DNA of 35,306 nucleotides from Prochlorococcaceae cyanobacterium jk18x1bzbins.87 (GTDB lineage Bacteria > Cyanobacteriota > Cyanobacteriia > PCC-6307 > Cyanobiaceae), in the NCBI GenBank assembly GCA_022826535.1, contig JAJDUS010000001.1:1-35306 (forward strand). The letters are read 5' to 3'. The position numbers were made by a program, and so were the translations under genes. Positions 32,295 through 35,306 of this stretch are shown piece after piece. Below the pieces are notes generated by a model. It made no database searches. It saw nothing but the letters and a program-made list of their open reading frames with translations, and was not told the DNA's origin. Positions within the stretch are counted from its first letter, which is position 1. The number at the start of each line of letters is the position of its first letter.

Positions 32295-33877
32295 TGCAAG
32301 GGCGTCCCTTTCTGATCATCCTGGTGCTGGCCATTGCAGGCCTGGCCCTTGCTCCCGTGCTGATGGTGCTGCTGCTGGCGCTGCGGGATCAGGGCATTGT
32401 GGAAGGCATCGGTGTGGGGGTGATCAACACACGCCAACTCAGGGGCACCATCGGCCTTTTGGCCACCGTCGGCCTTGGGGTGACCCTGCTGGGGGTGGCC
32501 ACCGGCTGGGTCACCGCCTGTTGCCATTTCCCTGGCCGTCGCTTTCTGCGTTCCATTCAACTCCTGCCCCTGGCCACGCCGGCCTACCTGCTGGCGGCCA
32601 CCCTGGTGGATCTGGGCTCGATCCAGGGATGGCGTGTCTATGGATTTGCCTGGGGCGTGGTGGTGCTGAGTCTGGCCAACTATCCCTATGTCTTCCTGCT
32701 CACGACGGATAGCTTTTCCCGGTTGGGCCAGCGGCAGTTGGAGGCCTGTCGCACCATGGGCCTGGGGCCTTGGGGAAGTTTTTTGCGGGTGGCGTTGCCC
32801 CTCACCCTGCCCGCCATTGGGGCTGGCATTGCCCTCAGTGGCATGGAGGTGGTCAATGAGTTGGGCGCCGTGGAACTGCTGGGCATCCCCACCCTCTCCT
32901 ATGGCATCCTCCAGCGTTGGCAAGAGCAGGGCAACCCCACCAGCGCCGCCCAGATGGCCCTGGTCACGTTGATTGTGGTGGCCAGCCTGATTGCCTTGGA
33001 GCGCTGGCTCCGCCGCCGCAGTCGCCGTTGGGCCCTGGATGGCCGTGGTGAAACATCCTTGACGTGGCCATTGGCGGGGTGGCGGGCCGGCACCGCCCAG
33101 TTGATTTGCGCTCTCCCCCCTGTGGTGAGCCTTGGCGTGCCCCTGCTGTGGATGAGTCAGCGCTGGCAAGGCACTGTGGAAGCCCCTGGCGAACTGCTCA
33201 AGCTGACGGGGAATACGTTGATTCTGGCGTCGGTGGCGGCGGCCCTCACCGTGGCCGTGGCCCTGCTACTGGCGGTGGCGCGCCGCTGGATCCGTCAACC
33301 CCTGTTGCAACGCCTGGTGTTTATGGCCTCCATGGGTTATGCCATTCCGGGAACGGTGTTGGCCCTGGGTTTGCTGGTGCTGGGCGGTTCTCTGGGCTGG
33401 ACGCCCCTGACCCTCCTGGTTCTGGGCTACACGGACCGCTTCATGGCCGTGGGCCGCGGTGGCTTTGATGCCGCCCTGGAGCGGATCCCCCCCACCATGG
33501 AGGAGGCCGCCACCAGCCTGGGCAGCACCTGGTGGCAAACCCTGCGGCGCATCCATTTCCCCCTCCTGGCTGGTCCCCTACGGGTGGGGACTCTGCTGGT
33601 GTTTGTGGACACCATCAAGGAGTTGCCCCTCACCTTTGCCCTGCGGCCCATGAACTTCGACACCCTCTCCGTGCGGGTGTTCCAATACGCAGGAGACGAG
33701 AGATTGAATTCCGCCCTGGGGCCAGCGGCCCTGATCCTGACCCTCGGCCTGGTGGCCTCCTTCGCCATGATGCGCACCACGGAAACCTTGGCATCTCGGG
33801 AGGCGCTGGAACCAGGGCTGGACGGGAGAAAGGACGTCCCCCAAGGGGGCCTTGGGCAATTGGAGAAGCAGTTTTGA
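32291..33877 (+). CDS. futB: Ferric-iron-type ABC transporter permease (FutB-like)
   Basis: The 528-residue inner-membrane permease has two fused MetI-like halves and about twelve hydrophobic segments. It is the FbpB/SfuB/FutB type that works with a periplasmic Fe(III)-binding protein and an ATPase. EAA loops are visible in each half: EACRTMGLGPWGSFLRVALP and EAATSLGSTWWQTLRRIHFP. LPLTFALRPMNFDTLSVRVF is typical of the iron group. The charged C-terminal tail after residue 500 may be altered, as a TnpB fragment begins within about ten bases of the stop. Iron specificity is by family; coupling to a CobW GTPase leaves another metal possible. FutA and FutC genes are not in the window. Confidence 0.88.
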   Translation: MMQGRPFLIILVLAIAGLALAPVLMVLLLALRDQGIVEGIGVGVINTRQLRGTIGLLATVGLGVTLLGVATGWVTACCHFPGRRFLRSIQLLPLATPAYLLAATLVDLGSIQGWRVYGFAWGVVVLSLANYPYVFLLTTDSFSRLGQRQLEACRTMGLGPWGSFLRVALPLTLPAIGAGIALSGMEVVNELGAVELLGIPTLSYGILQRWQEQGNPTSAAQMALVTLIVVASLIALERWLRRRSRRWALDGRGETSLTWPLAGWRAGTAQLICALPPVVSLGVPLLWMSQRWQGTVEAPGELLKLTGNTLILASVAAALTVAVALLLAVARRWIRQPLLQRLVFMASMGYAIPGTVLALGLLVLGGSLGWTPLTLLVLGYTDRFMAVGRGGFDAALERIPPTMEEAATSLGSTWWQTLRRIHFPLLAGPLRVGTLLVFVDTIKELPLTFALRPMNFDTLSVRVFQYAGDERLNSALGPAALILTLGLVASFAMMRTTETLASREALEPGLDGRKDVPQGGLGQLEKQF

Positions 33878-33883
33878 CCCATG

Positions 33884-34058
33884 GCTGTTCGCCGTTGTCC
33901 ATCAGGCAATGGCCATGTCCCGAATGTGGGGCCACCCACGACAGGGGCGCCAATGCTGCTAAAAACATCCTTGCCGCTGGGGTAGCGGTGAGGCAAAACG
34001 GACGTGGAGCCAGGCATAAGACCACTGACGCGGATCCCCACGCCAGGGAATTGTGAAG
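33884..34058 (+). pseudogene. TnpB C-terminal remnant
   Basis: The frame reads QWPCPECGATHDRGANAAKN followed by ILAAGVAV, the last zinc-finger cysteines and final RuvC motif of IS200/IS605 TnpB (family form DxNAAxNIL, here GANAAKNIL with the Asp replaced). It continues RQNGRGARHKTTDADPHA to a stop. Everything upstream is missing. It lies directly after the FutB-like stop codon, so an element inserted at or near the end of that gene and later decayed. Confidence 0.75.
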
Positions 34059-34676
34059 ACATTGTAATGAAGCTTGCCAAAAACTTGGGTGAGGGGTCTA
34101 GAAAATACTTTGAAGAAGCTCACTCCCCCTTGCCTCAGCCAACCCTGTTGATAAAAGGCCTGCAAAGCCTCAAAGCGAATTCACAAAAAGCTGACGCTCC
34201 CCTCTTTGAGCAGCAAGCCCTGCAGGAAGCAGGCGCAACAATACAAATAGGTAAAGAATTGTTACAATCCCCCCCACCCCCCCCGAAAAACATTCCTTAA
34301 CTCTTGGCTGCTGCTGAGGCGGTCTCTCGGTCTCAACCCCTCAGGTTCCCAACAAACACACAGCTCCTCCTCCCACACCACAAAACACCCGGCAGAAACT
34401 ACAACACCGGTCACATCCCCTTCAATCCACTCAGCAGGGGAAGCACAAAAGAAGGCAACACCCCACCAGCACACCCCCAGCCTGAAAGCGGGGCCGGACG
34501 TCCCGCCTCAACTCCATCAAGACGCCACACACAGAAGAAAAACGGACTTCCACAGTCACTGTCCGGGGGAGGACCTTCAACCATGGCTTCTTCCCAACAA
34601 AACGTTGGTGGCCACAGGGTCCCCAGGGAATACCAAACCCTTGCAAAAACGGGTAACGCCCATCCTCAAGGCCTCC
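34059..34676. other. Low-coding region upstream of the surface-protein gene
   Basis: This stretch has no confident gene. A frame from ATG 34067 to 34300 encodes 77 residues with a helical look but no known family. Bases 34269-34284 form a tract of C runs interrupted by one A. From 34251 a frame stays open into the exported protein gene, but its His/Pro/Thr-rich translation before 34677 looks non-coding. Any promoter for the downstream gene should lie here. Confidence 0.4.
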
Positions 34677-35306
34677 TTGACCCTTGACCCCAACCATGGA
34701 ACAGGGGCCTCTGCTGCTCCTGAACCCCAATCCTCTCCCACACACATTTCCACGCGATCTCCTCAAGCGTCTCCCCTGTCCTGGTCTGCTTCTGCATCAC
34801 TGGCAGCGTTAGCAATTTTATCTTTAGGTGCTCCGGCTCTTGCACATCATTTTAGATATACTTCTTCTGGTCACCCACTTTATAATCAAATACTACCTAC
34901 ATGCACTGCACAAATGCTGAATGCAGCTAAAGTGTTTGGCGACAGACTTTCAAGCAGGCGAGATGGATATACTCTCCATAGATACGCAGTTCATTCTAGG
35001 ATAGATGGAGTGACATATTTCAGAGTCTGTCATGAAGATAAGAACCGCCCCCCCATCGTAACAAACAGGCACTTCTCCATCACACGTCAGGTGAGGCTGG
35101 ATGTCCTCAAACGTGCGATCCTCGACTTTAACCTCGATAACCATTTCCGTGATCCTGACGGCGATGCCCTCTCCTACACTGCAACCAGCAGCCATCCTGA
35201 CATTGTTAGAACACTGGTTAAAGGCAACACACTCACCATCGCCGCCATCGGAAGAGCAACATTCCGCATTATAACCATTACAGTAACCGCAGATGACGGG
35301 AAGGGG
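34677..35306 (+). CDS. Exported Ig/cadherin-like domain protein (partial, continues past window end)
   Basis: One frame is open from 34251 to the window edge. A signal peptide is visible: SWSASASLAALAILSLGAPA then LA before HHFRYTSSG. The region from about 35045 reads NRPPIVTNRHFSITRQV, then LDNHFRDPDGDALSYTATSS, HPDIVRTLVKGNTLTIAAIG and ITITVTADDGKG. That is the hallmark of cadherin-like/Ig-like repeats of bacterial surface proteins (FxDPDGDxLxYTAxSS ... LTIxAxGxGTxTITVTAxDxxG). No ATG is in frame before the signal peptide. TTG 34677, preceded by AAGG at a spacing of five bases, is the best start. Part of the mature N-terminus is AT-rich. It is likely an exported adhesion or matrix protein; the C-terminus is unseen. 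Confidence 0.7.
   Translation, partial: MTLDPNHGTGASAAPEPQSSPTHISTRSPQASPLSWSASASLAALAILSLGAPALAHHFRYTSSGHPLYNQILPTCTAQMLNAAKVFGDRLSSRRDGYTLHRYAVHSRIDGVTYFRVCHEDKNRPPIVTNRHFSITRQVRLDVLKRAILDFNLDNHFRDPDGDALSYTATSSHPDIVRTLVKGNTLTIAAIGRATFRIITITVTADDGKG

Follow-up and report, generated by a model that had tools for sequence, protein, structure and literature searches.

An open frame at a cyanobacterial contig end probably begins an autotransporter-like display protein with an exchangeable head

Introduction

Which protein is begun by an open frame that carries a putative export signal and runs off its contig within an Ig-like domain? The stretch of DNA analyzed here (the window; 35,306 nucleotides) covers contig C74 completely, one of the 145 contigs of a 2.49-Mb genome. 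Because base 35306, at which the frame is interrupted, is the last base of the assembled contig, the interruption is an assembly break and not the end of a gene. A first-pass annotation of this DNA had read the frame as the start of an exported surface protein with an Ig/cadherin-like domain and had expected a long array of such domains. From the comparison with a paralogue and with relatives in other genomes, we consider it likely that the stretch represents the 5′ portion of a gene that encodes an autotransporter-like display protein of the outer membrane and belongs to a family in which heads are exchanged over a common stalk and barrel.

Results

The frame (34605-35306, plus strand) has no stop codon up to the window end. 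Its first ATG, GTG, or TTG codon is the TTG at 34605, and an in-frame ATG is absent, as the first-pass annotation had noted for the part preceding the signal peptide. The TTG start that it proposed agrees with this absence, while the start codon itself is unsettled, as a clear coding signal was looked for in the substitution pattern of the leader and none was seen. Extended upstream, the frame stays open for 352 codons, beginning without a start codon at 34251 next to a TAG stop at 34248-34250. From the TTG, a leader continues into a signal-peptide-like segment (34605-34844, plus strand) ending in LAILSLGAPALA. On reading the sequence, the hydrophobic stretch ends with APALA ahead of HHFRY, and we infer signal-peptide cleavage before HHFRY. 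The segment is followed by a head (34845-35042) and an Ig/cadherin-like domain (35043-35306), both on the plus strand, the latter truncated by the contig end ahead of its final strand. The motifs DPDGDA (at 35151) and TITVTA (at 35274) are present as claimed.

The Ig-like domain of the window matches most of the Big_9 (PF17963) and Cadherin_4 (PF17803) profiles; however, its scores of 19.5 bits (cut-off 23.6) and 19.0 bits (cut-off 25.1), respectively, lie below the curated cut-offs, and it is present as one copy and not as an array. Two relatives from genome G008 reach the Big_9 cut-off (C71, 29.5 bits; C47, 23.6 bits). The model of a close relative (L007), which shares 73% identity with the window in their common part, has seven strands, and Foldseek with this relative's Ig model gave Ig-like and cadherin domains among the matches (E 5e-4 to 1e-2). 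Judged from the relative's model, the prediction that the window domain is an Ig-like β sandwich is supported. Together, the signal-peptide-like segment, the Pfam matches, and the fold of the relative uphold the view of an exported protein with an Ig/cadherin-like domain.

The genome holds a diverged second copy of the gene (89% identical in DNA across about 500 bases), and relatives also occur in sister genomes; thus, the observation goes beyond chance. The paralogue at the start of contig C57 is 82% identical in protein over the 176 residues shared, with an Ig domain 91% identical to that of the window. It forms one 731-codon frame comprising a head, one Ig domain, a helical-looking, glutamine-rich linker, and, C-terminally, a barrel of roughly 373 residues, and this frame reads past the stop that relatives have after NDNR-FLQLR-DL. 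Large frames downstream on the same contig (L005:9420-16596) look, from reading their translations, like a methyltransferase and a helicase/restriction subunit.

We scanned nine proteins singly against the Autotransporter family (PF03797; cut-off 26 bits). Three of them passed, namely, the CAP-headed G008 C62 (37.2 bits), the leucine-rich-repeat (LRR)–headed G176 C72 (36.8 bits), and G149 C22 (32.5 bits), and G149 C38, whose barrel is 62% identical to that of C57, was narrowly below the cut-off (25.3 bits). The other five gave no PF03797 match, and neither did the barrel proteins examined in separate scans (C57, G008 C47, G008 C74, the partial G008 C71, and G063 C22); G008 C74 passed OMP_b-brl (34.3 bits, cut-off 28.7). 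A profile built from six barrels, in which the row of the frameshifted G008 C71 is partial, had no match among PDB sequences. The comparison of C57 with G149 C38 over 321 codons gave a barrel dN/dS of 0.20, indicating purifying selection. An autotransporter-type barrel is thus well supported by sequence for the family, and the window copy would carry one as well. The C-terminal anchor that the first-pass annotation had suggested looking for is found in the relatives, while the window's own 3′ half was sought in its assembly and not found.

The linker-barrel DNA of C57 matches three further places in the genome: contig C65 (71%), contig C61 (82%), and the last 48 bases of the window. The C61 match covers the 3′ end only and runs off the contig; this orphan end is one possible candidate for the continuation of the window gene. 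Contig C65, which harbors a damaged family member, also carries an 820-codon subtilase-type protein (L059:548-3007; Peptidase_S8, 63.8 bits), the C-terminal part of which is barrel-like by eye.

The survey for the barrel covered 201 family genomes taken from a larger group, with 10 from the window's genus and 191 others. The barrel was present in 10 genomes, that is, in 9 of the 10 of the genus (seven matches with E below 1e-70, two at about 1e-7 only) and in 1 of the 191 others, G049, whose protein carries FN3 repeats as heads on a related barrel. A more distant barrel gave 10 matches in the gammaproteobacterial genome RHO2_bin_50 and none in five other genomes queried beside it. The barrel distribution, together with general background on these organisms, suggests that the genus is the sponge symbiont ‘Ca. 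S. spongiarum’; the organism carrying the window is probably a sponge-dwelling cyanobacterium.

Three kinds of heads were found over one base: two-cysteine/His, LRR, and CAP (62.6 bits in G008 C62, cut-off 21.1). The G149 genes on contigs C1 and C7 have LRRs ahead of the same Ig domain as the window; both run off their contigs just past this domain (L035 and L039), and their barrels would lie beyond the contig ends. In a tree built from 12 Ig domains, the window, C57, and these two LRR-headed genes form one group (99/99), and the same-headed G149 C38 falls outside it. Ig identity to the window is 77 to 78% for the LRR-headed genes as compared to 44% for G149 C38. The 5′ DNA of the window also changes its kin, between 34747 and 34752. 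A leader stretch (34672-34747, plus strand) is 85 to 88% identical to LRR-type leaders (G149 C1, G149 C7, and C115), and the following signal-peptide stretch (34752-34852, plus strand) is 80% identical to that of the HHFKY-headed G149 C38. The best reading of these comparisons is that heads have been exchanged by recombination between family members over a common stalk and barrel.

On the minus strand of G149 C38 (L064:3-5038), one C15 element is followed by two exported LRR frames and then by the HHFKY-Ig-barrel gene. Contig C115 (L006:139-3407) carries two exported LRR genes and, at its start, a broken mosaic leader, the DNA of which is common with the window.

The C-terminal remnant of a TnpB-like transposase (33886-33969, plus strand; PF07282, 27.6 bits, cut-off 26.3; residues 119-146 of window:33532-34053) sits between the upstream ABC permease gene and the Ig gene, and 33894-34025 matches contig C87 at 71% DNA identity. 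Two exported LRR genes on contigs C115 and C9 of this genome share the region at 34238-34481 (plus strand) with the window, at about 70% identity. No RNA family was found within 33800-35306, and a simple scan of 34060-34860 found no sigma-70 promoter. As the barrel of the window copy was not found, this copy could be a truncated pseudogene, a decayed recombinant near the transposase remnant that is not expressed. In line with such decay, the remnant lies just 5′ of a gene with a chimeric 5′ end and no in-frame ATG, the assembly yielded no continuation, the C65, C61, and C115 copies in the same genome are broken or partial, and several relatives are frameshifted. Yet, the 352-codon frame is free of stops, and the signal-peptide stretch at 34752-34852 has kept its second codon positions (1 change in 34). 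Moreover, the contigs of both LRR-headed G149 genes also stop shortly after the Ig domain, which would be explained by a repeat that follows there and breaks the assembly. We consider the pseudogene unlikely and favor a gene for a display protein.

The head of this putative display protein comprises 66 residues, begins with HHFRY, and contains two cysteines. The description of this part as AT-rich and unfamiliar holds, although its length had been put at about 75 residues; 34845-35052 has 41% G+C as compared to 60.6% for the whole window. Heads of the same type occur at six loci in three genomes, and a head profile run against the 201 genomes found nothing beyond the six loci that built it. 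The head matched neither known families nor PDB sequences; in the predicted fold of the whole mature fragment, its confidence was low, and no significant structural match was obtained. The head dN/dS between the window and C57 was 2.28, which is not significant (Fisher p 0.13), and a value above 1 was therefore dropped as a signal of selection.

Four residues, H1, C20, C62, and H63, are invariant in all six aligned heads, a pattern that would allow for a disulfide and for a metal or ligand site. If the N-terminal histidine and the CH motif bound metal, the head itself might be a metal site or an enzyme, with the Ig domain and barrel as a mere carrier. However, H1 may be kept merely because the exchanged signal-peptide DNA ends there, as an unrelated CAP head also begins with HH, and the lack of a structural or family match and the low model confidence likewise speak against this explanation, which we regard as improbable.

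Among 10 relatives, nine have one Ig copy, some of these nine being cut by contig ends or frame breaks, and one, G008 C62, has two. The long multi-Ig/cadherin adhesin array expected by the first-pass annotation could draw on this two-copy relative and on the position of the Ig domain at the cut end, but it is very improbable because C57, so close to the window in its Ig domain, carries just one Ig copy ahead of its linker and barrel.

Ahead of the leader, the element AAAGAATTGTTACA is followed by a C7-A-C8 tract (34253-34284, plus strand), possibly a length-variable promoter or leader element. In the 10 genus genomes, the exact 14-mer has five copies, each of them adjacent to a G/C run at least 7 long, while 1.0% of positions in genus sequence are no more than 20 bases away from a run of this kind. 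Because the five sites share homology in part, they do not represent five independent events. The runs are C7AC8 in the window, C15 in G149 C38, C8 in G164 C151, G15 on the other side in G149 C47, and G51 running into the contig end in G008 C3. The latter contig (L175) starts within this G51, which is either a sequencing artefact or an extreme tract. Six sites differ from the 14-mer by one mismatch; the one in G114 has a C6 tract, and the other five lack runs of 6 or longer. When the pattern was lengthened to reach from the element to CTTAA, 11 matches were obtained in the 201 genomes. C tracts accompany all four matches in the genus and none of the seven outside it, which are spread over 6 of the 191 other genomes; since a reversed control pattern also matched in other genomes, these seven look like background. 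The genes 3′ of the element, where read, encode an exported LRR protein (G149 C38), a protein with a sub-threshold SLH match (G164), and the window protein; the frame downstream of the G149 C47 site does not appear to be exported. Counted by eye, TTRTTA and AACATT stand 18 apart in C115 and C9, and 24 apart in the window.

Phase-variable outer-membrane protein genes can carry a C or G tract in the promoter, for example, opc and porA of Neisseria. Similarly, the window gene has a cytosine tract upstream; no promoter was recovered there by the simple scan. Between paralogous or related loci, the tracts are of different lengths (one assembly per genome). The inspected frame breaks in G008 C71, C65, G114 C88, and G063 C104 are not in long runs and thus do not support phase variation. 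The only such break at a long run is in G149 C1, where a G11 tract (L062:5690-5700) interrupts the frame after the signal peptide and before the LRRs; the sister gene in G149 C7 lacks this tract. A length-variable promoter is, on the sequence pattern, a fair idea and not a finding, and the hint at phase variation given by this genus-specific element with its C tract is unproven. Recombination would swap the two-cysteine/His, LRR, and CAP heads over the Ig stalk and barrel, and single surface-protein genes would be switched on and off by a promoter element that is specific to the genus and carries a C tract of variable length (AAAGAATTGTTACAAT-Cn); such a surface-variation system is a doubtful proposal at this stage. 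G/C runs in general were set aside as a sign of contingency loci: runs of 8 G occur at 178 + 182 places in the 2.49-Mb genome, a count near the expectation for 60% G+C by estimate and not by a computed control.

Discussion

In the display protein that we favor, the signal peptide would export the product, and the missing rest of the protein, as seen in the paralogue, would comprise a helical linker and, at the C terminus, a barrel of some 370 residues that inserts in the outer membrane. On this barrel, the small two-cysteine head and its one Ig-like stalk domain would be exposed at the cell surface. Sequence comparison shows different heads over this common stalk and barrel, exchanged, on the best reading, by recombination, and, judged from the kinds of heads and the genera having them, they would most likely bind or sense surfaces of the host or of neighbors.

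The predicted layout resembles that of type Va autotransporters (PF03797), which have a signal peptide, an N-terminal passenger, a linker, and a C-terminal barrel, and relatives of the window gene pass the family cut-off. On the other hand, the nearest complete copy, C57, lacks a PF03797 match. Outer-membrane barrels usually end in an aromatic residue, whereas the barrels of this family end in NDNRxFLQLRxDL, without the usual terminal aromatic residue.

FN3 proteins with cadherin and autotransporter domains are described for ‘Candidatus Synechococcus feldmannii’ and ‘Ca. S. spongiarum’ SP3 (PMC6506613), and the general kind of protein is therefore already known. As in the window family, eukaryotic-like adhesion domains are joined there to an autotransporter domain in cyanobacterial sponge symbionts and are rare or absent in free-living kin, according to the parts of that source consulted; the FN3 repeats on the related barrel of G049 resemble these proteins. 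In contrast, the same parts contain no mention of heads swapped over one Ig domain and barrel, of a two-cysteine head, of barrels carrying CAP or LRR heads, or of C tracts. Relative to them, the head-swapping stalk-and-barrel family, the two-cysteine head, and the C-tract element are what sets the present case apart.

How photosynthetic symbionts escape being eaten by sponge cells, and how they bind them, is an open question. Head variation on one base may let a microbe vary what its host sees, and a head-changing family on one membrane base provides named candidates for this question. The C-tract element, in turn, would make on/off switching testable from the tract lengths in existing sponge metagenome reads.
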